Source of the DNA: Desulfurivibrio sp.
GTDB taxonomy: Bacteria > Desulfobacterota > Desulfobulbia > Desulfobulbales > SURF-16
Direction of reading: 5' to 3'
NCBI GenBank assembly: GCA_003605035.1
Contig: QZKJ01000107.1
Span: 1 to 37,752 of the forward strand
Length of the DNA: 37,752 nucleotides
Positions within the stretch are counted from its first letter, which is position 1, and every line of letters begins with the position of its first letter. Below, one piece after another: positions 17,759 through 35,000 of this stretch. The notes under the pieces are model-generated. The model searched no databases, had not been told where the DNA came from, and was given only the letters and a program-made list of their open reading frames with translations. Both the position numbers and the translations under genes were made by a program.

Positions 17759-19765
17759 TTAGAAATTATGGCATTTTGCACACTCATAGCCTTTGGCAAT
17801 GTGCTTCTTATGCAATGTGCTGCCGCTCCAGGTCTTGGAACCGTGGCAGTCATTGCACAGATCGCTTTTCGCCTTGACCAGGCCGCTCGGCTCAGAGGTA
17901 TGACAGCTCACGCAGGCCAGGCCCTCGGAACTGTGCTCCTGATGAAGGTTCTGCCAGGAAAGCGACTTCTGTTCATGGCACAGGGTGCAGTCCTTAACCT
18001 TGGCCGGCCAGGTATGGTAACCAAGCTGATCAAAGGGCACCATGCCGCTGCCGTCCGGGGTCTCGCCGGAGAAATCATGGCATTCACCGCAGGACGGGGC
18101 CATGGAGGCGGGCTCAACACCATGGGTGATCAGCATTTCGGCATCAACATCAACCATCTGATAGCTGCCGGTCATGCCCTGCTCTTCCATGCCTTTCTGG
18201 ACGGCCTGATCGAAATCACCGGTCATGAACATCCACATGATAGCCGGCGGCACGATCTTGCCGCTTTCATGCAGCGGCATGACGGAGAAGTGACGTTTAA
18301 TCGGCACAATCTGCGATTTGCCGTCAAAGGCCTCGCCGTTTGCACTGGCCATGGGGTAGATGCCTCTTTCGTCAGCCTGAATCGCCTGGCCCATGCTGTA
18401 TACCTCGGAGGTGCCGTCAAACCAGGTGTATTCCGGCTTGACGTTGGCAACCTTGACCTCTTCGCCGACAAAGCCGCCCTGGCCTGAACAGAAGGCAGGA
18501 TTCCAGACCGGGTTCAACCAGTCGCGGGACATCTCGGTTGCCCCGCCTTTGCCGAATTCACGGATATGGCAGACCTGGCAGGCTACCTGGCCGGCGGCAT
18601 GGCGGTTTAAGGTGGCGTCACCGTGAGGCGCTGCGGTGTGACAGTCGGCACATTGCGGCGCCGGGGCTTCGGTCTGGCGCAGATCAATGCCGCGGCCGCC
18701 GATCTTATGGCCGGAAGCGGCATGGCAGGCTGAGCAGGTCAGGTCGGCGCCGCCCGCGTCAGCGGACATGTGCACGTCCTGGGCCACGGTGGGCGCGACG
18801 CTGTTGGCGCCCATATCGCCCCGCTTGGTCCAGTCTCCGCCGCCTGCCTTGGCATGGCAGCGCAGACAGGACTGTCTGGTCGGCATATGCACGGTGCGGG
18901 CCAGGTCAACCATGGTGGTGCCGGCCGGCATCTTGGCATAATCAGGCAGGGTGCTGTAGTTACCCTCCGCATCAACCAGGCCGAAGATGTAGGTTTTTGT
19001 CTCGCCGTTGATATTGACCACGGTCTCCGCATTATTCGGGTCAGGATCCGGGACAAATGCCCGCTGGTAGGTGTCGTTGTGGCACATCATACAGTCAATG
19101 TCATTGACGTTCGGCGGATGCGGGGCATTGCCGTCAGCCCGGACATGACAGGTATAGCAGGCGCCCTTGGAAGATATGGCATAGGTGCAGAAGGTATTGA
19201 TGCCGTTGACGCCCTTGCCGTCATCACCGGTGCTGTTGGTCACGTCCGGAGAGGGGCCGGACCACTGCATGTGCAGGCTCTGCAGCATATCCTGGGCCTC
19301 GATCTGATGGCAGGCGATACAGGTGGCCGGGCCGTCATAGGAGGAAATGAACGGATGAGTAACTGCCGCGCTTGCGGACCCGGCAGCTCCCCCGCTGGTG
19401 GCTGCTCCCGTTACCGTGAAGGGAGTGGTGTCAGCCAGCCGGTTCCTCCGGTCCCTGAGATTGCACTTGAAATCCCACTCCCCGGTCATCTCATCAGCCG
19501 GAATGGGATAATCATAGGTGGCGGTGCGCCCGTCAATCTGCATGCTCTGCCTGTCGACCAGTACGTTATCCGCTGCATCGGTGATGGTGATCTGGGCAGA
19601 CCGAAGCGTCCGCGCCCACTCACCCGTACCGGTACACACGAAGTGCACGGTGTTGCCGACCAGTGCCGGGGTTGGATTGATGGACATGTCAATGCCCCGA
19701 TCTGCTGCATAGCCATTACCGGCAAGCAAAGCGAAAGCCGCTGCCGTAAATATCATTTTTTTCAT
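17759..19765 (-). CDS. Exported dodecaheme c-type cytochrome with N-terminal beta domain
   Basis: Exported protein of 668 aa. ATG 19765 (CGGAG 5 nt upstream) starts the signal peptide MKKMIFTAAAFALLAGNGYA. Residues 25-120 look like an immunoglobulin-type beta domain with no heme. Twelve CxxCH sites follow: CIACH, CYTCH, CMMCH, CLRCH, CSACH, CADCH, CQVCH, then, after about 150 residues, CGECH, CTLCH, CVSCH, CNDCH and CAKCH at the very C-terminus. The seven-plus-five layout, with a heme-free insert carrying PLHESGKIVPPAIMW, resembles respiratory multiheme oxidoreductases and extracellular cytochromes. There is no lipobox, so it is soluble or secreted. Monocistronic, with its own terminator. The redox partner cannot be named. 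Confidence 0.93.
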   Translation of the reverse strand: MKKMIFTAAAFALLAGNGYAADRGIDMSINPTPALVGNTVHFVCTGTGEWARTLRSAQITITDAADNVLVDRQSMQIDGRTATYDYPIPADEMTGEWDFKCNLRDRRNRLADTTPFTVTGAATSGGAAGSASAAVTHPFISSYDGPATCIACHQIEAQDMLQSLHMQWSGPSPDVTNSTGDDGKGVNGINTFCTYAISSKGACYTCHVRADGNAPHPPNVNDIDCMMCHNDTYQRAFVPDPDPNNAETVVNINGETKTYIFGLVDAEGNYSTLPDYAKMPAGTTMVDLARTVHMPTRQSCLRCHAKAGGGDWTKRGDMGANSVAPTVAQDVHMSADAGGADLTCSACHAASGHKIGGRGIDLRQTEAPAPQCADCHTAAPHGDATLNRHAAGQVACQVCHIREFGKGGATEMSRDWLNPVWNPAFCSGQGGFVGEEVKVANVKPEYTWFDGTSEVYSMGQAIQADERGIYPMASANGEAFDGKSQIVPIKRHFSVMPLHESGKIVPPAIMWMFMTGDFDQAVQKGMEEQGMTGSYQMVDVDAEMLITHGVEPASMAPSCGECHDFSGETPDGSGMVPFDQLGYHTWPAKVKDCTLCHEQKSLSWQNLHQEHSSEGLACVSCHTSEPSGLVKAKSDLCNDCHGSKTWSGSTLHKKHIAKGYECAKCHNF

Positions 19766-20344
19766 ATACACTCCGGTTATATGTTTATTTGCGCCCGTAA
19801 ATACTTTAGAACTTTGTTGATGTCAGAATGAACCTTGGCCATTGCGTATAATGGTCAAAGCGGAAAACAGCTCTTCTTCATTCGCTCCTCCTTGCTTGTT
19901 TTGCGTGAAGATCCCGCCTTTTTCTGATGAAAGCCATTATGCTTGCCCATACGATTTTAACAGCCCGAAGAAAAGCAAAGCGTGTGCCATGATTACTAAA
20001 TTTCAAATAAATATTTGTTATTATTATATAAATTTACAATAATAAGAATTTTTATTCTACCAGCCGATAAACCAATTCTGTCGCTCTGGGGAGACAAAAT
20101 CGGCCAGTGCGACAATTTGCCACAGCCACAACGTGGGATTAACAACTGTTTACAGCGGAAAAGGCGACCACGGCAAATTGTGTCTTTTTTTAGAGACAAA
20201 TTAAAAAATTTGTACTTTCTCCCCGGCAACAATAAAAACAAATTCAGCCAATCCTCTACTCAACAAGCAGATTCAGTCAGCAGAGATTGCATGGACCCCC
20301 CTTGAAGTACTTCTGCCCGCACCTGGCAATCCCCTGGAAAAAAC

Positions 20345-20630: not shown

Positions 20631-23096
20631 ATGACCACAGCCTATCTCAACAGCGGCAATTTCCCTGCTGCATCACATGCTACGGCAGACGCCCTGGCAG
20701 CAGAACTGGAATCCCTCTTCAGTAGCGACTTCACCGGAAACATGTTTGCCATGCTGGCCGGGTATCAGCGGATACTGGCCGACAACCGGCAGCGGCAGCA
20801 GTGGCCCGCGGTCCATAAAAAACTGGAAACTCTTTTCAAGTGCGGCAGCTATGCGGCGGTCGACGGCCCGATGGTCGGCATCCCGGTATCCATCCGGGAC
20901 AGCGACTATTTCCAGGCTACGGTGCAGCACTTCGGCAAGGAACGGTCAAAGATCGCCAGCATCGAATGGATGGCCACCGCCTGGAACATGACCTTCGCCG
21001 ATACCGGTCTATGGATGGGGAAAACCTTTGAACCGGTAAGTAAAGAGGTGGCGGCGGACAAGACCGGCAATGATGCCGAAATAATGGCCCGGTATGACCC
21101 GCAATCCACCCGCATCGGCCGCAACTTTTTCCGGCAGCCCCCCCAGCCTGGCCTGCTCCAGGGCCTCGGCCTGCCCGTGCTGACCCCGATGTGGAACCTG
21201 AAGCCGCGTCCCGCATCCCCGGCAGACAACCCCTTTGACGGTGAGCTGCTGGCCGGGAATCTGGCCAGGGAGATCAACATTCCCTACAGCATGACCGGCG
21301 GCATCTTCCTGGCCGCCCCCGGCAGATCCGTGGTGCCGGAGATGCACGGCAAAGAGGTTTATCAGCTCAACTACCGCTGGCCGCGGCTCAACCCCGCCTA
21401 CCCCATGACCCGGCTCATTGACGAGCTGGTCCGGATTGCCGACGGCATCTATCTGGGCCAGCTGGTTTTCGCCACCCGGCATTACAGCCTGGGCAGTCTG
21501 CGCCTGCTGGCCAGCCCCGACATGCCGGCCATACCCCTGGGCGAAGCTTACGCCAGCCGGCACGACAAGCCGTTTGATTTGCTCTTCAAACTTTTTTCCG
21601 GGGACAGGGAGGTGGATTACGGCTACCGGAACAACGGCTATTTCCTCATGATGGACCCGGCCTTGGCGCGCGAAATCTATGCCGACGACGCCTTCCCCCA
21701 GCTGCGGCCCCGGCCGGGCGAGAGCGGCTATCGGGAACTCGGTTACGACAAATCACCTCCGGCCCGGAAAACCGCGCCGCCCTCAACCGGCGCATCCCCG
21801 CAATATCCCGCCATCACCGACTGGGTGGCGGGTTGGCAGGACCACCCGGCCCTGCGGGAAAAATTCACCACCTTTATCCTGGAGGAATCGACCAGAAAAG
21901 CGGACGGTGATGTGCGGGAGCTTCTGCGCGACGGGGAATCCATTCTGCAGATGCTGCAGCGCATCAGTCTGGACATATCCGCCCAAAGCAGCGGGGACGA
22001 TCAGCTCAAACATTTCGAAAAGCTCCATCGCTTGTTCCGCTGCGGCGTCGCCCCCCGGGTGGTGAACGGCCTGTTTCAGGGCCATGGCAAACAAGGGTAT
22101 AACTGCCGGGTTGACGGCACGGAAAAACGGGACTGGTACGGCCAGGCGGAGGTGGCCCGCGGTTTTGATTTTTATCACGGCGCCACTCTCAACCTCCATC
22201 TCGGCTTTGCCGACACCTTCCGGGCCGATATCGGCAAAAAATTCGGCCACAGCCAGCTGTTTCCCGGCACCCTGGCCAGCCTGCTCGCCGATGACCCCAC
22301 CAGCCCCAATGTGCTGGACATGGTCTGGCACAGCATCGGCAAATACATCTTCCCCTGGGCCGGCAAATCCTTTGAAAAAATCAGCGGCCGCAAGCTGAGC
22401 ATGTTTCTGGACGAAAGCAGTGATCTGGCCAAACGGTACCCGGAGCGGGTCAGGGAGCTGAAAACCCATCTGGCCAGCGCTCCCCACTATGCTCTGGTGA
22501 AAAAGGCCGGCCGTCACTACTGGCACAAACCCGGCGCCTATGCGGCGCATCTGGCCAGCGGCTGCTGGGACAAGGGGATGAGCGAGGAGGACCGGGCCTA
22601 CTGGGAAAAAGAGGCCAGTGAGCATTGGGTGGACGGCAACAACATCCAGGATGAGCGCATTGTGGCGGCCGACCCCCTGATGCGGGTGATCGACATGAAT
22701 TACCGGGTGCCGGACCCCGTGCTGCAGGCCGTGTCCGCGGCCGGTCCCTCACCCTTTGCCCGGCAGGGCTACATCTTTCTCGGCGTAGACGACCGGCAAT
22801 CGATCCTGCCGCAGAACAACGAGGGCGACCGCAAAAAAAAGGTCTTCCAGTTTCACTACCGCTATCCGATGATCGGCGGCCCGACGCCCATCGGTTTCTG
22901 TCTCGATGAGCTGGTGGAGATCGCCGACGGTTTGTTTCTGGGCCAGCTCATCTATGCCACGGCGCTCGAGGTGCCCTATCACTCCTCGGTTGATCCGGCG
23001 GAGTACAGATACCAGCTCTTCGGTTATTTTCTCCTGCTTGATGAGGCCTGGGAGCAGCAACGCCGGGCCATCAGGCTCGATGTCTGGCAGGATTAA
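20631..23096 (+). CDS. Unknown 821-aa protein with internal duplication, first gene of the glycyl radical operon
   Basis: Not recognised. The protein has no signal peptide and appears to be two related modules. VYQLNYRWP..RLIDELVRIADGIYLGQLVFAT (from residue 243) is echoed by VFQFHYRYP..CLDELVEIADGLFLGQLIYAT (from 738), each followed by a GYF-hydrophobic-D strand. LFKCG (68) matches LFRCG (468), and WMGKTFE (128) matches WAGKSFE (576). So each half holds a Cys segment, a GK(T/S)F segment and the DELxxIADGxxLGQL segment. The pattern suggests a tandem beta-rich binding or enzyme domain. It starts 89 bp before the glycyl radical enzyme gene and is likely cotranscribed. ATG 20631 has a weak GAGAAG site. 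Confidence 0.85.
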   Translation: MTTAYLNSGNFPAASHATADALAAELESLFSSDFTGNMFAMLAGYQRILADNRQRQQWPAVHKKLETLFKCGSYAAVDGPMVGIPVSIRDSDYFQATVQHFGKERSKIASIEWMATAWNMTFADTGLWMGKTFEPVSKEVAADKTGNDAEIMARYDPQSTRIGRNFFRQPPQPGLLQGLGLPVLTPMWNLKPRPASPADNPFDGELLAGNLAREINIPYSMTGGIFLAAPGRSVVPEMHGKEVYQLNYRWPRLNPAYPMTRLIDELVRIADGIYLGQLVFATRHYSLGSLRLLASPDMPAIPLGEAYASRHDKPFDLLFKLFSGDREVDYGYRNNGYFLMMDPALAREIYADDAFPQLRPRPGESGYRELGYDKSPPARKTAPPSTGASPQYPAITDWVAGWQDHPALREKFTTFILEESTRKADGDVRELLRDGESILQMLQRISLDISAQSSGDDQLKHFEKLHRLFRCGVAPRVVNGLFQGHGKQGYNCRVDGTEKRDWYGQAEVARGFDFYHGATLNLHLGFADTFRADIGKKFGHSQLFPGTLASLLADDPTSPNVLDMVWHSIGKYIFPWAGKSFEKISGRKLSMFLDESSDLAKRYPERVRELKTHLASAPHYALVKKAGRHYWHKPGAYAAHLASGCWDKGMSEEDRAYWEKEASEHWVDGNNIQDERIVAADPLMRVIDMNYRVPDPVLQAVSAAGPSPFARQGYIFLGVDDRQSILPQNNEGDRKKKVFQFHYRYPMIGGPTPIGFCLDELVEIADGLFLGQLIYATALEVPYHSSVDPAEYRYQLFGYFLLLDEAWEQQRRAIRLDVWQD

Positions 23097-23185
23097 GGGA
23101 GAATGGTTATTATTTAAATATTAATGTTTGCTCACCATCGCGGCCGGCATCTTCGACACAGCCACAACCTGGCGGGAGGGACACC

Positions 23186-25669
23186 ATGATAACACTCGAT
23201 GACATCAGCCTGAAGGACTTCACCCTGGAAAACCTGCCCCGGCTGCAGGAACTCCGCCGCCTCTCTTTTGCCAGAAAACCCGAGATCTGTATCGAGCGGG
23301 CCCGCTATATCACCCGTTACCTGCGCGATCAGGATGACCCGGACGACGCGCCGGAGGTACGGCAGGCCAAGAAGGTCAATTATTTCCTGCAGCACAAGCT
23401 GCCGGTCTTTCACGACCGCAATCTGCTGGCCGGCAGCACCACCAGCAAGGCGCTGGGCGCACCATTGTTCCCGGAGTTCTTCGCCCTGACCCTGTGGCCG
23501 GAGCTTGATACGGTCAGCAAACGGGCCAAAAATCCCCAGCAGTTGACCGCTGAAGAGGCCAGGGAGCTGAACCTCGACATCTTCCCCTTCTGGATGGACA
23601 ACAACGTGCTGGAATTGACCCGGGCGCGGATCGTCAAGGAAAAGAACGCCAATGCCGCGGAAAGCCTGCGGCTCTTTGAAAGCCTGGTCTTCTTCATTGC
23701 CGCCAAGGCCGGCTGCATCTCCCACGCCGTGCCCACCTATGCGCCCGTGCTGGAGCATGGCCTGAGCGGCCTGATCGGTATGGCGGCGGAGCGCGAAGCA
23801 GCCAGCCGGACCCAGGCCGGCGAGGCAGGCATCCGGCAGGCCGATTTTTACCGGGCCGTGCAGATCGCGCTTTCAGGCATCATCACCTACGCCGAACACC
23901 TGGCCGACGAGGCGGAAAGGCGGGCCGGCGTGGCCGCTGATCCGGCAGTCAGGCAGGAACTGCTCGAACTGGCCGGGATCTGCCGGCGGGTGCCGGCCGG
24001 GCCTGCCGCCACCTTCCGGGAGGCGGTCAATGCCGTGTGGCTCTGCCAGGTGGGCATCCACGCCGAAAATATCAACATGGCCATGAGCCCCGGCCGGCTG
24101 GATCAGCTCCTCTATCCCTATTATAAGCGGGACGTGGAGGCGGGGCGCCTGGATACCCGCGGCGCCATTGAGCTGATCGGCTGCCTGTGGCTGAAGATCG
24201 CCGACAATGTCACCATGGTGCCCGAGGCGTCGGAAGAGATGTTCGGCGGCGCCGGCACGGTGCCGGCCATCACCCTGGGCGGGGTGAACGCGGACGGCGA
24301 GGACGCGGTCAATGACCTGACCTATATCATGCTGCGGGTTACCGAACTGCTCGCCATCCGCGACCCCAATGTCAATGCCCGCTATGATTATGAGAAAAAC
24401 AGCAGGCAGTACTGCCGCCGGGTGTCGGAAGTCATTCTCAACACCAGGGCGGTGCCGGCCTTTTTTAATGACCGGGCCAACATCACCGCACTTCAAGGCC
24501 AGGGCGAAAGCATCGAACATGCCCGGGACTATGCGGTGATCGGTTGTGTGGAACTGGCCAGCAGCGGCCGGGACTACCCGGCCTCCAGCTCCATTATGCT
24601 GAACCTGGCCGCGCCGCTGGAGATGGCGTTGTTCCAAGGCAGAAGGCCGATCACCGGCGAGGAGCAGATCGGCCCGCAGACCCCGGACCCGGCCACGCTC
24701 GCGAGTTTCGAGCAGTTCTGGGAGGTGTTCAAGACCCAGCTCGACTGGCTGATCGAAAAGGCCATCGCGCTTAATGAAGAGATGGGCAGGGTGCATCAGC
24801 AGCTGATGCCGTCGCCGCTGCTCTCCGCTTTCTTTGAGGGCCCCCTGGACAAGGGCAGGGATCTCATCCGGGGCGGCTCGCTCTACAATTCCTCCGGGGC
24901 CACCCACATCGCCTTTGCCGATGTGATCGATTCCCTGAATGCCATTGAACAGACGGTGTTCATTGAGAAAAAATTCAGTTTTGCCGAACTGCTGCAGATG
25001 GTGAAAAGCGATTTCGCCGGGCCGGCCGGGGAGAAGATGCGGCTTTATCTGCAAAACAGAACTCCCAAGTACGGCACCGAACATCCCATTGCCCGCAAGA
25101 ACGCCCAAAATGTCGTGCGCCACCTGTTTAAGCTCTATCAGGCCCACACCAACTACCGCGGCGGCTCCTACCGGCCGGCCTACTGGACCATGACCAACCA
25201 TGCGGGACTCGGCGGCATCACCGGCGCCCTGCCCCATGGCCGCAAATCCGGCGAGCTCTTCGCCAGCGGCATCACCCCGGTCTCGGGCGCGGCGCCGGAG
25301 TTGACCGCCTGCCTCAATGCCGTGGCGGAGCTGGGCGGCGAATGCGTGCCGGGCTGCTGGGCCCTGAACATCAAATACAGCCCGGAAGGTGACCCGGCGC
25401 AGATGAGCGAGCGTTTCGCCCAGACCATCGAGGCCTATTTCCAGGCCGGCGGCCAGCAGGTGCAGTTCAACATCATGACCTACGAGATGCTGCAGGACGC
25501 CAGAAAGCACCCGGAAAAATATCCGGAACTGATGGTGCGGGTGTCCGGCTACTCCGCCTATTTCAAGGACCTCAATGAACTGATGAAGGACGAATTGATC
25601 ACCCGCACCATGTATGACCTGACCAATGGCCGGGCCGTACCCTATCCAGAGGAAAAAGGGGGGAAATAA
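23186..25669 (+). CDS. Glycyl radical enzyme (PFL/dehydratase superfamily), substrate unknown
   Basis: Oxygen-sensitive radical enzyme of 827 aa with the ten-strand barrel seen in pyruvate formate-lyase, glycerol dehydratase and choline TMA-lyase. The radical site is G788 in RVSGYSAYF near the C-terminus. The thiyl cysteine is C454 in VIGCVELASSGRDYP. The C-x-E arrangement (C454, E456) is that of eliminases, where the Glu acts as base; pyruvate formate-lyase has two adjacent cysteines instead. The usual proline after CVE is Leu here, so it does not match known dehydratases, CutC or isethionate lyase exactly. GGGAGG precedes ATG 23186. The SCP2-like protein and the activase follow directly. 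The substrate is open. Confidence 0.93.
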   Translation: MITLDDISLKDFTLENLPRLQELRRLSFARKPEICIERARYITRYLRDQDDPDDAPEVRQAKKVNYFLQHKLPVFHDRNLLAGSTTSKALGAPLFPEFFALTLWPELDTVSKRAKNPQQLTAEEARELNLDIFPFWMDNNVLELTRARIVKEKNANAAESLRLFESLVFFIAAKAGCISHAVPTYAPVLEHGLSGLIGMAAEREAASRTQAGEAGIRQADFYRAVQIALSGIITYAEHLADEAERRAGVAADPAVRQELLELAGICRRVPAGPAATFREAVNAVWLCQVGIHAENINMAMSPGRLDQLLYPYYKRDVEAGRLDTRGAIELIGCLWLKIADNVTMVPEASEEMFGGAGTVPAITLGGVNADGEDAVNDLTYIMLRVTELLAIRDPNVNARYDYEKNSRQYCRRVSEVILNTRAVPAFFNDRANITALQGQGESIEHARDYAVIGCVELASSGRDYPASSSIMLNLAAPLEMALFQGRRPITGEEQIGPQTPDPATLASFEQFWEVFKTQLDWLIEKAIALNEEMGRVHQQLMPSPLLSAFFEGPLDKGRDLIRGGSLYNSSGATHIAFADVIDSLNAIEQTVFIEKKFSFAELLQMVKSDFAGPAGEKMRLYLQNRTPKYGTEHPIARKNAQNVVRHLFKLYQAHTNYRGGSYRPAYWTMTNHAGLGGITGALPHGRKSGELFASGITPVSGAAPELTACLNAVAELGGECVPGCWALNIKYSPEGDPAQMSERFAQTIEAYFQAGGQQVQFNIMTYEMLQDARKHPEKYPELMVRVSGYSAYFKDLNELMKDELITRTMYDLTNGRAVPYPEEKGGK

Positions 25670-25671
25670 CC

Positions 25672-26118
25672 ATGCCGGACCTGATCACGCAGCAAGTCCA
25701 GAAGAAACTGTGGCAGAGATTGCAAAACAGTTTCAGCTCCGAGGTGGCGGAGGAATTCCTGCAGACCCTGCTGACCCTGATGCAGTTTGTCTTTGTGGTG
25801 AATGCCGACTACCGCCGGAATCTCAAAAATTTCGAGGGACGTTACCAGTTCTGCAGCAAGGACGGCGAGGTGACCATTGCCGCGCTCTTCCATGACAACA
25901 GGATGGAGGTGATGGAAAAAAAGATCGACAAACCCGATATCACCATCACCTTCCGCGACGGCAGGACCCTGCTTAATTTCATCATCGCGCCCCGGCAGGA
26001 TATCCTCGGTTCCATGCTGCGTCATGATGTGGTGACCGAAGGCAACCTCAATTATCTGTATAAATTCGGCTTTATGGCCAAGCAGCTGCAACTGATGATG
26101 CCGCAGCTGTCCCAGTGA
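25672..26118 (+). CDS. SCP2-like sterol/lipid-binding domain protein
   Basis: Soluble 148-aa protein that looks like a sterol carrier protein 2 domain, a small fold with a hydrophobic tunnel that binds lipids or acyl compounds. The recognisable part is KPDITITFRDGRTLLNFII, followed by a helix, EGNLNYLYKFGFMAKQL, and a hydrophobic C-terminus. It begins with a helical segment ending LLTLMQFVFVVNADY. It sits 2 bp after the glycyl radical enzyme and its stop codon overlaps the GTG of the activase, so translation of all three is coupled. Possibly it delivers or shields a hydrophobic substrate. No catalytic residues are evident. Confidence 0.78.
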   Translation: MPDLITQQVQKKLWQRLQNSFSSEVAEEFLQTLLTLMQFVFVVNADYRRNLKNFEGRYQFCSKDGEVTIAALFHDNRMEVMEKKIDKPDITITFRDGRTLLNFIIAPRQDILGSMLRHDVVTEGNLNYLYKFGFMAKQLQLMMPQLSQ

Positions 26119-27014
26119 AAGAGGCCCTGATCGGTGATATTGGCCGCTACAGCGGACATGACGGCCCCGGCATCAGAACAGTCGTGTTTTTCAAGGGCTG
26201 CCCGCTGCGCTGCCCCTGGTGCCATAACCCGGAGTTCATCGCCAGCCGGCCGGAGCTCGCCTTTTCCGCGGAGCGCTGCATCGGCTGCGGCGATTGCCGG
26301 GACATCTGCCCGGAGGGGGCGCTGACCGTTGACAAAATAGTCCATATCGACCGCAGCCGCTGCACCGGCTGCGGTCTTTGCGCTCTCAGCTGCCCGACCA
26401 AGGCCCTGGAACTGGTGGGCCGCAGCTATAGTGTTGACCAACTTGCCGACATCCTGCTGCGGGACAGACTATTTTATGCAGCCTCTGGCGGCGGGGTCAC
26501 CCTGTCCGGCGGCGAGCCCACGGCCCAGCTCGGCTTCTGCGGCGAGCTGCTGGCCAGACTGCGGGCGGCAGGGATCCATACGGCCATGGAGACCAGCGGT
26601 TTTTTTGCCTGGGACGACTTTCAGGCGGCCTGCCTGCCGTTTGTCGATCTCATCCTCTTTGATGTCAAGATCGCCGATGCGGCAAGACACCGACAAATCA
26701 CCGGGGTCGACAACAAGGTGATCCTGGCCAACCTGCAAAAACTGCTGGCCGCCCGGCCCGGGGAGGTAATCCCCCGCATCCCGCTGATCCCGGGCTTTAC
26801 GGCGGACAGAGAAAATATCAGCCGGCTGGCCGAGCTGTTTCAGGAATTAAAAGTGCACCGCTGCTCGCTGCTGCCCTATCATCCCTTCGGAATGAGTAAG
26901 GCGGCAAAAATCGGCGGCAGGCCGGACCGCACGCTGCCGGCAAAATCCATGGAGCGAGCGGCGCTGCAGGAGTGGCAACGCTTTTTTACCGGTATGGATC
27001 TGGTTGCCGCGTAA
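26115..27014 (+). CDS. Glycyl radical enzyme activating enzyme (radical SAM)
   Basis: Radical SAM activase of 299 aa that abstracts hydrogen from the target glycine of the enzyme encoded two genes upstream. CPLRCPWC (C29, C33, C36) binds the catalytic 4Fe-4S cluster. An inserted ferredoxin-like domain carries CIGCGDCRDIC (C55, C58, C61, C65) and CTGCGLCALSC (C83, C86, C89, C93), the two extra clusters found in activases of dehydratase-type enzymes but not in that of pyruvate formate-lyase. GGVTLSGGEPT binds SAM and METSG and DVKIAD follow the family. It starts at GTG 26115, overlapping the previous stop by 4 bp. This supports an eliminase-type partner. Confidence 0.95.
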   Translation: MKEALIGDIGRYSGHDGPGIRTVVFFKGCPLRCPWCHNPEFIASRPELAFSAERCIGCGDCRDICPEGALTVDKIVHIDRSRCTGCGLCALSCPTKALELVGRSYSVDQLADILLRDRLFYAASGGGVTLSGGEPTAQLGFCGELLARLRAAGIHTAMETSGFFAWDDFQAACLPFVDLILFDVKIADAARHRQITGVDNKVILANLQKLLAARPGEVIPRIPLIPGFTADRENISRLAELFQELKVHRCSLLPYHPFGMSKAAKIGGRPDRTLPAKSMERAALQEWQRFFTGMDLVAA

Positions 27015-27072: not shown

Positions 27073-28131
27073 ATGCAGATTGATTTCCATCACGCCACCA
27101 CCTATGTTGCCGCCCGTCTGGCCGGCTTTCCCCAGGACAAGGCCGAGACCGTCGCCCATGCCGCCCAGTATGTGGACGATGCCACCAGCTCCGGCACGAT
27201 CAATTTTGACAATGAGGCCCTCTATTCCCGCATCAGTTCCGCCCATAAGATGCTGGACCGACGCAATGCCGATGAGCTGGCCAACCATCTGGTCTGGATT
27301 CCCTTTCATTTCCTGCCCGGCAACGACGGCCTGGGCGAAGGCCAGAATCCCATCGGCAGCTTCATCAACAAGCTGGTGTGCAAGCCGGACAGCCCCATCG
27401 CCCGGCAGATGGTGCGGCAGGCCATCATCGACCAGAATCGGCCCTACGGGCTGCATCGGCTGGGCGTCACCATGCATGTCTATGCCGATACCTGGGCCCA
27501 TCAGGGCTTTGCCGGCGTGCTGCATAAGATCAATGAGGTGGAGGATACCAGGGAGACAGGCAACTCCGGGGTTTTTTCCTCCGGGCTTGGCGCTTTCCTG
27601 GCCGACCTGCTGGATGACGCCGTCCCCCCCCTCGGCCATGGCCGGGCCACCGTCTTCCCGGATATGCCCTTTCTGTCCTGGAAATACAAAAACGGCCGCA
27701 AGGAAAAAATAGAACGCAACAACACCGACCAGTTCTGCCAGGCGGCGGATCAGCTGTGCCGGGCCATGAAACGCTATATCGCCAGGGATCCCCATGCCGA
27801 GGTGAGCGGCATCGACGGGCCGGACATGAACAAAATCCAGGATCTTTTCACAAATCTCAAGGAAGAAAGCGGGGACAAGCGGCATGCGGCCTGGCTGCTT
27901 GCCATCGAGCAGGATCCGTTCAGCTTCGGCCCGGAAAAGATCTCCTATCCCGCCAAGGGACCGGGCTCCTGGAAAGAGCAGGCCCTGGGCACCAATGTGG
28001 ATAAACTGGAATATCCATGGAACCCGGCCTTTCTCAAGAGCAACTGGAAATACTTCCATGATGCGGCCCAGGCCCATCGCTTTTATGTGATTTATGATCT
28101 GCTGCCGAAATTCGGCATCTGCGCAGCTTAA
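27073..28131 (+). CDS. DUF6765-like protein, predicted metal-binding
   Basis: Protein of 352 aa matching my memory of DUF6765. Its start, IDFHHATTYVAARLAGF, and AQYVDDATSSGTI (31-43), HKMLDRRNADELANH, VWIPFHFLPGN and RLGVTMHVYADTWAHQGFAG (128-148) are hallmark stretches. D4, H6, D35, D36, H128, H135, D139 and H143 are placed to bind metal, as in helical zinc-dependent phospholipase C or P1 nuclease folds. The enzymatic role has not been shown. No signal peptide is seen. AAAGGAG precedes ATG 27073. It lies 58 bp after the activase and begins the second half of the operon. Confidence 0.82.
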   Translation: MQIDFHHATTYVAARLAGFPQDKAETVAHAAQYVDDATSSGTINFDNEALYSRISSAHKMLDRRNADELANHLVWIPFHFLPGNDGLGEGQNPIGSFINKLVCKPDSPIARQMVRQAIIDQNRPYGLHRLGVTMHVYADTWAHQGFAGVLHKINEVEDTRETGNSGVFSSGLGAFLADLLDDAVPPLGHGRATVFPDMPFLSWKYKNGRKEKIERNNTDQFCQAADQLCRAMKRYIARDPHAEVSGIDGPDMNKIQDLFTNLKEESGDKRHAAWLLAIEQDPFSFGPEKISYPAKGPGSWKEQALGTNVDKLEYPWNPAFLKSNWKYFHDAAQAHRFYVIYDLLPKFGICAA

Positions 28132-28164
28132 CCATCATTGCATTGATCAAAAGGAGACATGCCC

Positions 28165-28524
28165 ATGCCAGAGGAAAGACGAGGATTACGCGCGGCACTG
28201 GAAAGCCTGCGGGACGCGACCTGCGACCTGACGTCGCTGGAGGTCCAGACCTACACGGGAAATCTCGAGGTGCTTTTTGACAAGGATAAAGAGGTCAATA
28301 TCGCCAGCTTTGAGAAGGTCCTTGAAAAAGTCAAGGTATCCGGCACATTGAAGCTTGCCGCCATGACCAAGGTGAATCTGGACGGCGATACCTTTCTGCT
28401 GACCTCGGAAAACGATCTGCCGCTCCATGTGCAGCGGGCCCATGATGCCGCGGTGCAGGCCGGCATGGAAACCCGGGCGGCCCTGCTGTCGCTGTTCGCC
28501 AATGTCATCGGCATCGGCGGGTAA
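28165..28524 (+). CDS. Small conserved-looking protein of unknown function
   Basis: Predicted protein of 119 aa, no signal peptide or membrane segment. It has a helical N-terminus, then a beta-rich segment (GNLEVLFDKDKEVNIASFEKV, VSGTLKLAAMTKVNLDGDTF) and a helix ending in a glycine-rich tail. ATG 28165 has AAGGAG 8 nt upstream; ATG 28159 is too close to that site. It lies between the DUF6765 and the peptidoglycan-binding genes, with gaps of about 30 bp, and so is part of the same unit. The position fits a chaperone or immunity-like partner but nothing in the sequence proves it. Confidence 0.75.
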   Translation: MPEERRGLRAALESLRDATCDLTSLEVQTYTGNLEVLFDKDKEVNIASFEKVLEKVKVSGTLKLAAMTKVNLDGDTFLLTSENDLPLHVQRAHDAAVQAGMETRAALLSLFANVIGIGG

Positions 28525-28565
28525 TATGCAAGCCGCCTTGGGCGTTGCCCGGTTTCCCGGAAGAA

Positions 28566-30134
28566 ATGGCTTATAATTTTACCGAGGGGCTGGAGCATTT
28601 CCGGCAACTGGCGCTCGCACCCCAGGCCGCGCTCCATGCCCCTGACGAGATGCTTTTTAACAGCTTAACCGCCCTGCGGCAGGATTTTGATCTCGCCAGC
28701 AAGCGCGGCATCTTCAATCCCCTGCCGGAATCGGAGCCCCCCATTGCCCAGGATGCCCCCCGGCTCCGCACCATCCGCAGCCGTCTGGCCGGCCTTGGCT
28801 ATCTGCGCCAGGATGCCGGCCTGCCCATCCGTGACCCCCTCTTGATCCATGCCATCAAAAAGTTTCAACAGGACGCCGGACTGACCACCGACGGCTGGGT
28901 GGGCCGGCAGACCTGGCAGGCCCTGCAGGAGCTGGTCAGCTTTGAAAGGCAGGGCGATATCGGCCGCTGGTTTATTGGCAACAATGGCCCATGTCGCGCC
29001 CTGGAACGGGCCATCGCCCTGCGCCTGCAGGTGCTGGGCTTGACCGATACCCCGGCTTGCCACGAGCCGGCCGGACTGGCCGCTGGCCTGCAGCGCCTGC
29101 AGAGCGTTGCCGCCTTTCTGCAGCTGCCCGGAAAAGAAAAAATCCGGCCTGAGGTCTGCCCGGCCACCATTGCCCTGCTCTTTGACCAGGACCTGCTGGT
29201 CGAAGGATTGGCCGCCGGGCACCCGCTGCCCAACGATGCCGATCATCCTCTTTTTGCCTTTGCCGCCTGCATGGCCAAAGTGGAGTTATGGCTGGCCGGT
29301 TACGAGGTGACGCCGAATGGCTATGAGGGGAAAGAATTCTTCCGGCCAACCCCGCAAATCCTGCTGCTGGGCAATGATTCCGAGCTGTTTGCCGCCCTGG
29401 CCGCCTACTGGCGGGACCATGGTAAAAAAGAGGAAAGCCCGCTGCTGGCCCAGCGTTTTGCCGGCGAATTCCCGGCATTTTTCCGCATGATTACCGCCGC
29501 CATCAGGGCAGGGAAAGGCCTGGCTGCCACTGAAAAATCCGCCATGATCTCGCGTATGGCGGGCAAACAGCCGGAGCAGCTTGCGGCCATCTGGCAGACG
29601 GCCCTGTCGCTGGGTGGCCGGATGTGGGACGGCCTGGGCCGGGCAGCCGGCTGGCTCCGCAACCTGACGCGGCAACCAGGGGGCAAGATGGTGGGGATCG
29701 GCAGAAATATTTCGAGACTCGTTTATCACCAGGCCATGACCGCTTTTGAACTCGCCCGCCAGGCCCTGCAGGACTTTCCCGTGCTGCTTGACCAGGCTTT
29801 TTCCAGGGAGCCGGCGGGATCGGACCCGCGCCATATCATGATGCGCCATGACCGGGATCTTGCTTTCAAGGTGTATGTCAATACCATGGGTGATCCGGCA
29901 CAGATCAATCACTTCACAGCCCAGGTTAGCCGGACCGCCGCGTCGTTTGCCGCCGCCTGCCGGATCATCGCGCTTTGCCTGTCAACCCTGCATACCATGG
30001 TCAGCCAGGGCAGAACCGGCTGGGCAGGACTTATTCTCGCCCTGCTGCAGGTCTCCGACCAGATCATGGCCCACGGCAGACATCTTGCCCCTGCGCCGGA
30101 TTCCACCGGTCCGGGCCGCCTGCCGCGGTTCTGA
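28566..30134 (+). CDS. Protein with N-terminal peptidoglycan-binding domain, C-terminus unknown
   Basis: Protein of about 522 aa. Residues 66-124 form a PG_binding_1 domain: LRTIRSRLAGLGYL, HAIKKFQQDAGL, DGWVGRQTWQAL. These three-helix domains bind cell-wall peptides and are common in lysins and phage or secretion effectors. The rest is helical, with Ala/Leu-rich hydrophobic stretches near the end (SRTAASFAAACRIIALCLS, GWAGLILALLQV) that could be amphipathic or membrane-inserting. No signal peptide, so any export would be non-Sec. I chose ATG 28566 (GGAAG just upstream); TTG 28545 is an in-frame alternative. It is the last gene of the operon, next to the DUF6765 protein. Confidence 0.8.
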   Translation: MAYNFTEGLEHFRQLALAPQAALHAPDEMLFNSLTALRQDFDLASKRGIFNPLPESEPPIAQDAPRLRTIRSRLAGLGYLRQDAGLPIRDPLLIHAIKKFQQDAGLTTDGWVGRQTWQALQELVSFERQGDIGRWFIGNNGPCRALERAIALRLQVLGLTDTPACHEPAGLAAGLQRLQSVAAFLQLPGKEKIRPEVCPATIALLFDQDLLVEGLAAGHPLPNDADHPLFAFAACMAKVELWLAGYEVTPNGYEGKEFFRPTPQILLLGNDSELFAALAAYWRDHGKKEESPLLAQRFAGEFPAFFRMITAAIRAGKGLAATEKSAMISRMAGKQPEQLAAIWQTALSLGGRMWDGLGRAAGWLRNLTRQPGGKMVGIGRNISRLVYHQAMTAFELARQALQDFPVLLDQAFSREPAGSDPRHIMMRHDRDLAFKVYVNTMGDPAQINHFTAQVSRTAASFAAACRIIALCLSTLHTMVSQGRTGWAGLILALLQVSDQIMAHGRHLAPAPDSTGPGRLPRF

Positions 30135-32037: not shown

Positions 32038-35000
32038 GTGAACGGTATAGATTTTGTTGCAAACTGCCTGTTGCTTGATCTGGAAACCAATGAAAGGGAT
32101 GAAATCTTTCATATCGGCGCGGTTTACCGTGACCGTACCCTGGAAAGGAAGAGCCGTTTCAGTCTGCGCGCGGCGCTGGCCGAACTGGATGAACTGGCGG
32201 ATGCAGCCCGTTACCTGCTGGGGCATAACCTGCTTGGCCATGATCTGCCTGTGCTGGCCTCCCAGGCTCCGGGGCTGCGGCTTCTCCAGAAGCCGGTGGT
32301 TGATACGCTGTATCTCTCACCCCTGGCATTTCCCGAGAATCCTTACCACCGGCTGGTGAAAAATTACAAGCTGGTCAGGGATTCGCTCAATAACCCGGTG
32401 GCCGATGCCCGCCTGGCGGCCTCGGTGTTCAACGACCAGTGGCAGAGCTTTGCCGCCCTGGGCAAAACCGAAACGACTGTTCCCGCCTTTTATCGCTTCT
32501 GCTTTGCCGGGGACAGCCGCCTTCCCCTGCGCAGTGACGGACTGCAGGCGGTTTTTGCCGCAATCGGGGCGGCAGAGATCAGCCAAAACGAGGCGTTGGC
32601 CATCTTTCAGGAGCAGGTGCAGGGCAAGGCCTGCGAGACTGCCGTCACGGCGCGGGTCCCTGCCTATCTGGCCAATCCGCAAACCAGGCCCGCCCTGGCC
32701 TATTGCCTGGCCTGGCTGCGGGTGGCTGGCTGCAATTCCGTGCTGCCGCCCTGGGTGCGTCACCGTTTTCACGATGTGGTGCCGATCCTGCAACAGCTGC
32801 GGGAGACCCCCTGCGCCAATCCCGCCTGCCTCTGGTGCCGGACCACCCATAATCCCCGCCGGCAGCTGGCAAGGCTCTTCGGCTATCCGGCCTTTCGGGC
32901 AACACCGGCCACCCCGGACGGCAACAGCCTGCAGGAGGCTATTGTCGGTCACGGCATGCGGGACAAACCGCTGCTCGCCATCCTGCCCACCGGCGGCGGC
33001 AAATCCCTCTGCTACCAGATTCCGGCCTTGGTGCGCCATTTCCGGCGGGGGGTGTTGACCGTGGTCATCTCCCCGCTGCAGGCGCTGATGAAGGATCAGG
33101 TTGACGGCCTGGCGGCCAAGACCGGCACCATGTTCGCCGCCGCCATCTACGGCATGCTGACCCCGCCGGAGCGGGGCGAGGTGCTGGAGCGGGTCCGGCT
33201 GGGAGACCTTGCCATCCTTTATATCTCCCCGGAGCAGCTGCGCAACAAATCAGTGATCGATGCCATCAGCCAGCGGGAAATCGGCTGCTGGGTCTTTGAC
33301 GAGGCTCACTGCCTGTCAAAGTGGGGCCACGATTTCCGGCCCGACTATCTGTACGCCTCCCGCTTCATCCGGGAGTTTGCCGCCAGACAGCAGACCCCCG
33401 TCCCGCCCATCGCCTGCTTCACCGCCACTGCCAAGCGGGACGTGATCGAGGAGATCACCGACCATTTCCGCCGGGAACTGGGCCAGGAGCTGGCGGTGTT
33501 TGAAGGCGGGGTGGAGAGAAGCAATCTTTCCTTCGAGGTGCAGCTGATCAACAGCGCCGAGCGCAACGAACGTCTGCACCAGATTCTCGCCGAACGCCTG
33601 CCCAAGCCGGAACTCGGGGCAGCCATCATCTATGCCGCCACCCGGACTGACACCGAAAATATCAGGGATTTCCTGTCCAGAAAGGGCTGGCAGGTCGAGG
33701 CCTTTCACGCCGGCCTGGAGGCGCCGCTGAAACGCCGCATCCAGGAGGATTTCCTCAGCGGCCACACCCAGGTCATCTGCGCCACCAATGCCTTCGGCAT
33801 GGGTATCGACAAGGACAACGTGCGGCTGGTGATCCATGCCAACATTCCCGGGTCGCTGGAAAACTACCTGCAGGAGGCGGGCCGGGCCGGACGGGACACC
33901 AGAGCGGCGGAGTGCGTCCTCCTCTATAACGAGGATGATATTGAAACCCAGTTCAAACTGGGCGCTCTCTCTGAGTTGACCCGGCATGACATCAGCCAGA
34001 TCCTCCGGGGCCTGCGCCGTGCCCGGCGCAACAAGGACAACCAAGTCGTCATCACCAGCGGCGAGCTGCTGCGGGACGACGAGGTGCAAACCGGTTTTGA
34101 CAGCCACGACCGGCTGGCCGACACCAAGGTGAAGACGGCGGTCTCCTGGCTGGAACGGGCAGGATTTATTGAACGTAACCAGAATAACACCCGGGTCTTT
34201 CAGGGGCTCCCCCTGGTCAGCAGCCTGGAGGAGGCGGAGGAGAAAATCGCCCCCTTGGATATTCCGGCCAGCCAGAAAAAACGCTGGCTGGCCATCCTGC
34301 AGGCCTTGTTCAACGCCAGGAAGGACGAAGGAATGAGCGCCGACGAACTGGCTGAACTTCCCGAATTCAGGGAGAGGGGCCAGGCCACCGGGTCTCTTGC
34401 CATCTCCGGGGATACCCAGCTGGTGTTACGGGATCTTTATGCCATGAGCGAAACAGGGCTGCTCAAACAGGGGGTTCTGCTGAACGCCTTTGTCCGCTAC
34501 AAAGTCGGCGATCATTCCCGGCTGCGTTTTGACAAGGTCTGCAAACTGGAGATGGCCATGCTCCAGCTCATGCAGGAGACCGAACCCGAGGCCGAGGGCT
34601 GGCTTGATCTCTCCCTGCGCCGGCTCAATCAACGCCTGGTGGATGAAGGCCAGGAAAGTTTGCCCGAACTGCTGCGCAACCTCCTGAAAAGCCTGGCCCT
34701 GGACGGCAAAGGCCTGGCGGGCAATCGCGGCAGCATTGAATTCCGCTATTTCGGCCAGGACCATTACCAGCTTAAATTAAACCGCGACTGGCCCACCCTG
34801 CTGGCCACGGCCCAGAAAAGACGTCTGGTGGCCAAGGTGATCCTGGACGCCATCTTTGCCAAAATCCCGGCCAGCACTCCGGCCAGCGGCGAACTGCTGG
34901 TCAACTTTTCCCTTGATGACCTGACCATGGCGCTCCGCAACAATCTCTTCCTGGCCGGCCAGCTCAAGGACAGTCTGGCCGCCATTGACCGCGCCCTGAT

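Follow-up and report, generated by a model that had tools for sequence, protein, structure and literature searches.

We analysed a window of 37,752 nucleotides (contig QZKJ01000107.1 of the Desulfurivibrio sp. assembly GCA_003605035.1), focusing on an operon that encodes a glycyl radical enzyme (GRE) next to a small protein of predicted SCP2 fold. Four open reading frames (ORFs) that a first-pass annotation had placed between positions 20631 and 27014 were all present at those positions on the forward strand: a duplicated-domain protein of 821 amino acids (20631 to 23096), the GRE (827 amino acids; 23186 to 25669), the SCP2-like protein (148 amino acids; 25672 to 26118), and a GRE activase with a GTG start (299 amino acids; 26115 to 27014). 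The same annotation described the four genes as tightly coupled. This is true of the GRE and SCP2-like genes, which are 2 bp apart, and of the SCP2-like and activase genes, whose stop and GTG start overlap by 4 bp, but not of the 821-amino-acid gene, which ends 89 bp before the GRE start. The run of same-direction genes extends into a DUF6765 gene (27073 to 28131, forward strand), which begins 58 bp past the end of the activase.

The enzyme was assigned to the GREs from its domains, alignments, and trees. Pfam recovered both domains of the class (PF02901, PFL-like, at 5.5e-158; PF01228, Gly_radical, at 1.8e-20). The two motifs reported earlier, C454-V-E456 and RVSG788YSAYF at the glycine loop, were found as described, with G788 as the radical glycine. 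Among 30 aligned relatives, C454, V455, E456, and R785-V-S-G788-Y-S are invariant, and the C-x-E motif was present in 35/35 SCP2-linked rows of one alignment and 37/37 of a second. The adjacent activase scored 321 bits against TIGR02494 (cut-off, 174), and Pfam found two Fer4 stretches beside its one radical-SAM domain, in agreement with the two extra 4Fe-4S clusters noted before. We rejected these clusters as a distinguishing mark, since extra Fe-S clusters are ordinary among GRE activases in the part of PMC11528403 available to us. Nor does leucine after the CVE motif mark a special enzyme or a substrate, as had been suggested: Escherichia coli PflD also reads CVEL, 20 of the 21 fused rows described below have proline, and L114, L198, L199, and L206 within the SCP2-linked clade read CVEP. 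Elsewhere the motif is CVEI (the A. fulgidus PFL2 chain) or CVET (HypD).

We scanned a species-genome collection with the GRE alone, using six peptide patterns, and kept the best 80 of 86 relatives, which formed 79 loci; a gene was counted as near the GRE when it lay at most about 6 kb away, on whichever strand. Since nothing but the GRE decided which loci entered the sample, linkage to the SCP2-like gene was not built into it. The SCP2-like gene lay directly after the GRE in all 72 loci with at least 600 bp downstream (the remaining seven have 0 to 156 bp). This pairing is far beyond chance, and the SCP2-like partner was never missing beside a close homologue in the loci where it could be scored. 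An activase match was near the GRE in 56 of the 62 loci with at least 1,700 bp downstream; 55 of these are solid, because the match in L074 is weak and to another protein. The loci with no activase nearby are L051, L063, L073, L074 (weak match), L076, L079, and L114. L051 belongs to Desulfosediminicola flagellatus; in Desulforhopalus sp. IMCC35007 (L048), a sulfate reducer in culture, the GRE, SCP2-like, and activase genes are all present. DUF6765 was near the GRE in 32/40 loci with both flanks and in 52/79 overall, the 821-amino-acid family in 30/79, and a GXWXG/DUF4334 protein in 3/79. The four-gene set first proposed consists of real genes of a conserved system but omitted DUF6765, which is found in more loci than the 821-amino-acid family. 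By record label the genomes, mostly metagenome bins, belong to sulfate-reducing lineages, Nitrospirae, Bacteroidia, Spirochaetes, Clostridia, Acidobacteria, and a Bilophila bin. A bin of ANME-2 archaea (L091) also holds a GRE copy (77% identity, in two frames) with the SCP2-like and activase genes, perhaps through binning contamination.

A second sample consisted of 32 whole genomes selected because they hold DUF6765 or the 821-amino-acid family. Of these, 18 had a GRE match and 11 an SCP2-like match; the fused SCP2 domain of G053, which is weaker, escaped the latter count. Ten of the 11 have their SCP2-like match beside, or in frame with, a GRE of the clade; in G070 the match lay beside short GRE remnants. 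There (L208, 3815 to 4517) the GRE between DUF6765 and SCP2 has shrunk to short fragments, while the flanking frames are open.

The small partner has the SCP2 fold, as judged from a predicted structure. Its AlphaFold2 model, made with 33 relatives (mean pLDDT, 82.9; pTM, 0.78), matched SCP2 structures in Foldseek at a probability of 1.00 (best E value, 2e-5; 28 matches at E ≤ 0.001), and it is on these matches that we assign the fold. The matched structures are AF_1534, UbiJ, the SCP2 part of alkylsulfatases, and animal and yeast SCP2, at about 9 to 17% identity. At the sequence level, the Pfam SCP2 profile was found at E ≤ 0.01 in 4/33 family members (best, 2.5e-4). Both the fold of the predicted model and the position of the gene thus agree with the earlier description of an SCP2-like protein between enzyme and activase. 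PDB profile matches of the alignments made for the SCP2-like protein and for DUF6765 (FtsH, with E values of 0.4 to 0.6; designed barrels at 7e-5 and 4e-4) were judged spurious.

In related enzymes the two partners are joined. The SCP2 match and the GRE of G134 share one frame of 1,016 amino acids, and the G134 N-terminus, run against 395 phylum genomes, matched in 35. Twenty-three of these have an open frame of at least 900 amino acids with the fused N-terminus (11 genomes carry two or three), and the 21 that were read all hold a GRE, G196 and G085 being outside the reading. Seven further matches are stand-alone SCP2-like genes of the separate type (E values of 7e-7 to 3e-4), two are cut short (G067 and G251), and three are weak and unexplained (G003, G011, and G132). 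The fusions are about 1,000 amino acids long with an N-terminal SCP2 domain (L198, 1991 to 5038; L199, 2017 to 5112; L231 to L250), and SCP2 and GRE occupied a single frame in 20/20 loci read, L245 being cut by the contig end. A profile built solely from stand-alone SCP2-like proteins matched the fused N-terminus in 19/20 at E < 1e-7; that of L250 scored 14.2 bits (E = 0.003), no higher than a 374-amino-acid ORF in L238. SCP2 is a constant partner of this GRE clade, separate in the window type and fused in a related subclade. The L238 ORF (1 to 1122, reverse strand; 14 bits) has an N-terminus that looks SCP2-like by eye, joined to an oxidoreductase-like part.

Against NCBIfam, the window GRE reached no equivalog or subfamily GRE cut-off. 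It scored 548 bits against the PFL2-3 subfamily TIGR01774 (cut-off, 678), 423 and 380 bits against HpsG/HpfG (cut-off, 1000), and 391 bits against CutC TIGR04394 (cut-off, 1050). For comparison, L036, taken as CutC, scored 1,608 bits, and L181 and L187, taken as HpsG, scored 1,546 and 1,503. The nearest solved chains were 2f3o, CutC, glycerol dehydratase (GDH), and HypD. We built two IQ-TREE trees, one with 44 rows and one with 46, in which the references were CutC, HpsG, PflD, YbiW, and four unnamed GREs, few in number and on long branches; GDH, HypD, IslA, hydroxyphenylacetate decarboxylase (HPAD), and benzylsuccinate synthase (BSS) were not among the rows, and the first tree included the near-copies L205/L076 and L202/L114. 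In both trees the separate and fused SCP2-linked GREs formed one clade (support, 100/100) with all reference rows outside. The 21 fused rows made up their own subclade (100/100), the window type and 14 others made up another (100/100), and the enzyme of G017 (L206) branched between the two at a place that the tree leaves unsettled. The window enzyme did not cluster with the CutC, HpsG, PflD, or YbiW rows in these trees, which stand in place of a full similarity network, and its sequence supports a position outside the characterised families compared here. The candidate new GRE system of the first-pass annotation is in part borne out by the NCBIfam scores, the clade, and the constant SCP2 partner.

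This GRE subfamily is real, widespread, and, as far as the literature searched shows, undescribed; wherever a locus was read and could be evaluated, SCP2 was there as a partner or as a domain. Among the listed matches from the open PMC literature (long listings being capped, and most subscription papers lying outside its scope) on GREs with SCP2, sterol carriers, ether lipids, or sphingolipids and on DUF6765, we recognised nothing that describes this system. The portion of PMC6325248, on GRE microcompartments, that was available does not mention SCP2 or sterol, and benzene activation, from the portion of PMC13101534 available, is a different system.

In the active site, position 298 is Met in 30/30 aligned window-type rows, where structure-chain alignments place Asp278 of HypD and a His of GDH. 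Nearly every window-type row has Ser468; at this position the fused rows mostly carry Asn or Gly. We take the aligned GDH residues to be His281 (at Met298) and Asp447 (at Ser468), so that the GDH pair is replaced here; at the position of what is presumably Thr502 of CutC, the window type has Ser. Asp278 of HypD is likewise replaced, by Met298, and the HypD score is 412 bits against a cut-off of 1100. His180 of the window enzyme aligns with HypD His160 and is invariant in the 30 window-type rows. In HypD, Asp278 is essential, and roles have been described for Asp278, His160, and Glu436 (PMC7077986, available in part). Because Met298 and Ser468 replace polar residues of HypD and GDH, the window-type pocket looks less polar than theirs, which fits, and does not prove, a hydrophobic substrate.

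The DUF6765 protein, the frequent fifth partner, was assigned by PF20551 at 1.4e-108. Its invariant residues across 25 rows (M1, H6, D35, H79, H135xxxD139xxxH143, H189, and D197) follow what we take to be the zinc-ligand order of the phospholipase C/P1 nuclease superfamily, and it is possibly a zinc metallohydrolase of that type, akin to phospholipase C. The initiator Met stands five residues before the invariant His, presumably the same spacing as between the N-terminal Trp and His zinc ligands of P1 nuclease, and Met1 may be a metal ligand. An S1-P1 nuclease profile gave three matches in 99 genomes, all below the cut-off.

The 821-amino-acid protein is found in a subset of loci only. An hhalign comparison (probability, 100; E = 1.3e-45) shows its two halves to be homologous, as the label "duplicated-domain" had implied. 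By sequence it matched nothing in Pfam, NCBIfam, or the PDB; a single PDB match of its alignment (E = 1.4) was judged noise. The structural model (mean pLDDT, 78.3; pTM, 0.55) matched nothing in the PDB at E ≤ 0.001. Its best match, 4mve (Foldseek TM-score of 0.49 on the target, E = 1.0), is a weak likeness to a structure related to the GXWXG/DUF4334 protein of L084, and an hhalign comparison of the 821-amino-acid profile with 13 GXWXG sequences was non-significant. The predicted link to GXWXG proteins is suggestive only. A shared role is possible because a GXWXG-type protein immediately precedes DUF6765 in L080 and L088 and is close ahead of it in L084. PF14231 matched none of 118 phylum genomes; since no control matched either, this is not evidence of absence. 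Two tandem single-domain relatives follow the activase in L206 (6583 to 8504) and L213, and the pair in L206 suggests that the 821-amino-acid protein may have arisen by fusion of tandem copies. In G132 (L203, 2714 to 6504) the protein is split into frames of 546 and 291 amino acids about 1.3 kb apart, with the GRE on another contig.

Some fused relatives have neighbours of the fatty-acid-oxidation type. L236 has a thiolase and a 3-hydroxyacyl-CoA dehydrogenase/crotonase-type protein nearby, with homologues in L237; L234 has an AMP-binding protein whose best matches, below the cut-offs, are long-chain fatty-acid-CoA ligases; L244 has a divergent aldehyde ferredoxin oxidoreductase; and L231 has genes for a beta-keto acid cleavage enzyme and of the CoA transferase and acetyl-CoA hydrolase types. 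The wider synteny common to L244, L246, and L249 makes them a single case. No genes of these kinds were recognised in the remaining fused loci, most of whose neighbours were outside the scan. Short-chain dehydrogenases/reductases (SDRs) of a single cluster adjoin the operon in fused loci L233, L234, L235, L236, L237, and L242. We kept a sphingolipid idea, with these SDRs as 3-ketosphinganine reductases, as a lead only: the NCBIfam KdsR model was found for one of five fused-locus SDRs among the matches listed (L242, 124.8 bits; cut-off, 400), and the SDR of window-type L055 scored 208.6 bits against the same cut-off. Among loci of the separate type, L077 has a true PF00882 phospholipase C after the activase, and L101 has an alpha/beta hydrolase there. 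The alpha/beta hydrolase of L084, about 3 kb past the activase and beyond a tRNA synthetase gene, was not counted. Peptidases, peptidoglycan-binding proteins, and a type VI secretion system part vary between loci and were set aside as partners. A papain-like cysteine peptidase is encoded upstream of the operon in several loci (a 7-locus cluster; L097, 6570 to 7379, the one checked with Pfam).

Within the window, two more genes continue on the forward strand after DUF6765, and their membership of the operon is doubtful: a 121-amino-acid protein of no family (28159 to 28524) with relatives only in L038 and L052 among the 79 loci, and a 529-amino-acid protein with a peptidoglycan-binding domain (28545 to 30134) with matches above 700 bits in only the same two. 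Adjoining the operon on the reverse strand (17759 to 19771) is a cytochrome c protein of 670 amino acids with several such domains. A 1,730-amino-acid protein at 32038 to 37230 has DEAD/Helicase_C and UvrD helicase domains together.

We lean, by a modest degree, toward reading the system as a GRE that acts on lipids, is probably an eliminase, and has an SCP2 domain dedicated to it. What the data show is the identity of the domains, the constancy of the GRE-SCP2 pairing, the fusions, a single clade set apart from the references, and conserved catalytic residues; SCP2 as carrier, a lipid substrate, elimination, and the part played by DUF6765 are inferred. A hydrophobic or lipid-derived substrate, which SCP2 would present, is the best inference, helped by the neighbours of some fused relatives. 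Abstraction of a hydrogen from the radical glycine by the activase is established GRE chemistry; here the activase would act on G788, and the glycyl radical would pass to a thiyl radical on C454. An amphipathic substrate would be bound by SCP2 at its hydrophobic tail, and docking of SCP2 on the GRE would let the polar head into the barrel. There the thiyl radical would remove a hydrogen next to a hydroxyl, with E456 as base, and the neighbouring group would leave. DUF6765, and in some loci the 821-amino-acid protein, may prepare or carry the substrate, for instance by removing a head group, and in some fused relatives the product may feed fatty-acid oxidation. Our guess at the likeliest substrate class is a long-chain lipid whose head is a vicinal diol or substituted alcohol, such as a glycerol ether or sphingoid base. 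The broader proposal of a new GRE class for lipids, in which SCP2, separate or fused, lifts a membrane lipid to a radical site that breaks C-O or C-N bonds without oxygen, is doubtful and sits below an even chance.

It is important to note that several observations weigh against a lipid-directed eliminase. The 148-amino-acid protein scored 14.9 bits against Pfam SCP2 PF02036 (E = 0.034), below the gathering threshold of 21.3; fused N-termini gave three weak Pfam SCP2 matches in 10, all below cut-off; and SCP2 folds can serve roles besides lipid carriage. The pocket argument is not uniform across the clade, since, of the 21 fused rows, 16 have Ala at position 298, 3 have Asp, and 2 have Thr, the three with Asp running counter to low polarity, and His180 is kept in 18/21 with Gln or Glu in the other three. 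Elimination itself is unproven because C-x-E also occurs in arylacetate decarboxylases. DUF6765 is missing from 8/40 loci with both flanks, and it is not exclusive to the GRE system because it was found in 26/148 phylum genomes, several without any GRE match; its tie to 13 PF00882-type sequences is weak (hhalign aligned the HxxxDxxxH part at a probability of 38, E = 3e-4). Fatty-acid-oxidation-type neighbours occur in a minority of the 20 fused loci, the ligase and FadB-like ones reach no NCBIfam cut-off among the matches listed, and the neighbours of window-type GREs are varied, with no clear pathway among those scanned.

The same partnership could be explained by SCP2 as a structural or regulatory subunit, contributing to stability, gating of the radical domain, or activase docking while the enzyme acts on an ordinary small substrate. 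We regard this as unlikely, though it is the alternative that survives best. The SCP2-like gene sits between the enzyme and activase genes, as might suit a subunit. In the part of PMC12358834 available to us, accessory subunits are named for HPAD, BSS, and (1-methylalkyl)succinate synthase (MASS) and affect solubility and conformational gating; those characterised structurally have Fe-S clusters or a rubredoxin-like fold, not a lipid-carrier fold. Fatty-acid-oxidation-type genes beside some fused relatives and phospholipase-C-like neighbours likewise speak against a mere subunit. Alternatively, the enzyme may work like an arylacetate decarboxylase, on a hydrophobic carboxylic acid that SCP2 brings in; this would suit the C-x-E motif common with HPAD-type enzymes and the weak NCBIfam matches to indoleacetate decarboxylase (287.5 bits) and hydroxyphenylacetate decarboxylase (233.1 bits), but eliminases score higher (HpsG, 423; HypD, 412; CutC, 391), all of them far below cut-offs, and we consider it improbable. 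Slightly more improbable still is action on isoprenoid quinones or their precursors, with SCP2 working as we take UbiJ and UbiT to work in ubiquinone synthesis; the UbiJ SCP2 domain ranks with the model's best structural matches, but no quinone-biosynthesis gene was recognised among a selection of 40 neighbour proteins scanned, and the genes near some fused relatives are of the fatty-acid-oxidation type. A known eliminase (CutC, HypD, GDH, HpsG, or IslA type) with accidental neighbours is scarcely credible and already contradicted, for despite the same domains and motifs and about 27 to 32% identity to plasmid GREs over most of the query, no NCBIfam cut-off was reached, the clade stands apart at 100/100 (in trees without GDH, HypD, and IslA), and the linkage is 72/72.

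An SCP2 partner or fusion in every evaluable locus read offers a clear, testable handle on a possible anaerobic radical attack on lipids and points to undescribed lipid handling by anaerobic bacteria. If the lipid-directed reading is true, the system would supply a missing anaerobic route by which recalcitrant lipids could be broken down in sediments, vents, and guts.

The GREs that have been studied in depth use small polar metabolites or hydrocarbons as substrates. The window enzyme shares GRE domains, C-x-E, the R-V-x-G-Y loop, and a cognate activase with the eliminases GDH (1r8w), HypD (6vxc), CutC, HpsG, and IslA and with A. fulgidus PFL2 (2f3o), and it differs from them in its own clade, in reaching no family cut-off, and in its constant SCP2 partner. 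The invariant His/Asp residues of DUF6765 follow what we take to be the ligand order of the Zn-dependent phospholipase C/P1 nuclease group (PF00882, PF02265), a kinship that the profile comparison does not prove; the first invariant residue of DUF6765 is Met, not what we take to be Trp in P1 nuclease, and by eye the protein has no apparent signal peptide. The fold of the predicted SCP2-like model is common to AF_1534, UbiJ, and the alkylsulfatases Pisa1 and SdsA1, in which the matching SCP2 part lies inside a catalytic protein of about 630 amino acids; identity to these is only 9 to 17%, and the enzyme class here is different. Like HPAD, BSS, and MASS, the system combines a catalytic GRE with a small dedicated partner, but whereas their partners are Fe-S or rubredoxin-like proteins, here the partner has a predicted SCP2 fold and is fused to the enzyme in a related subclade.

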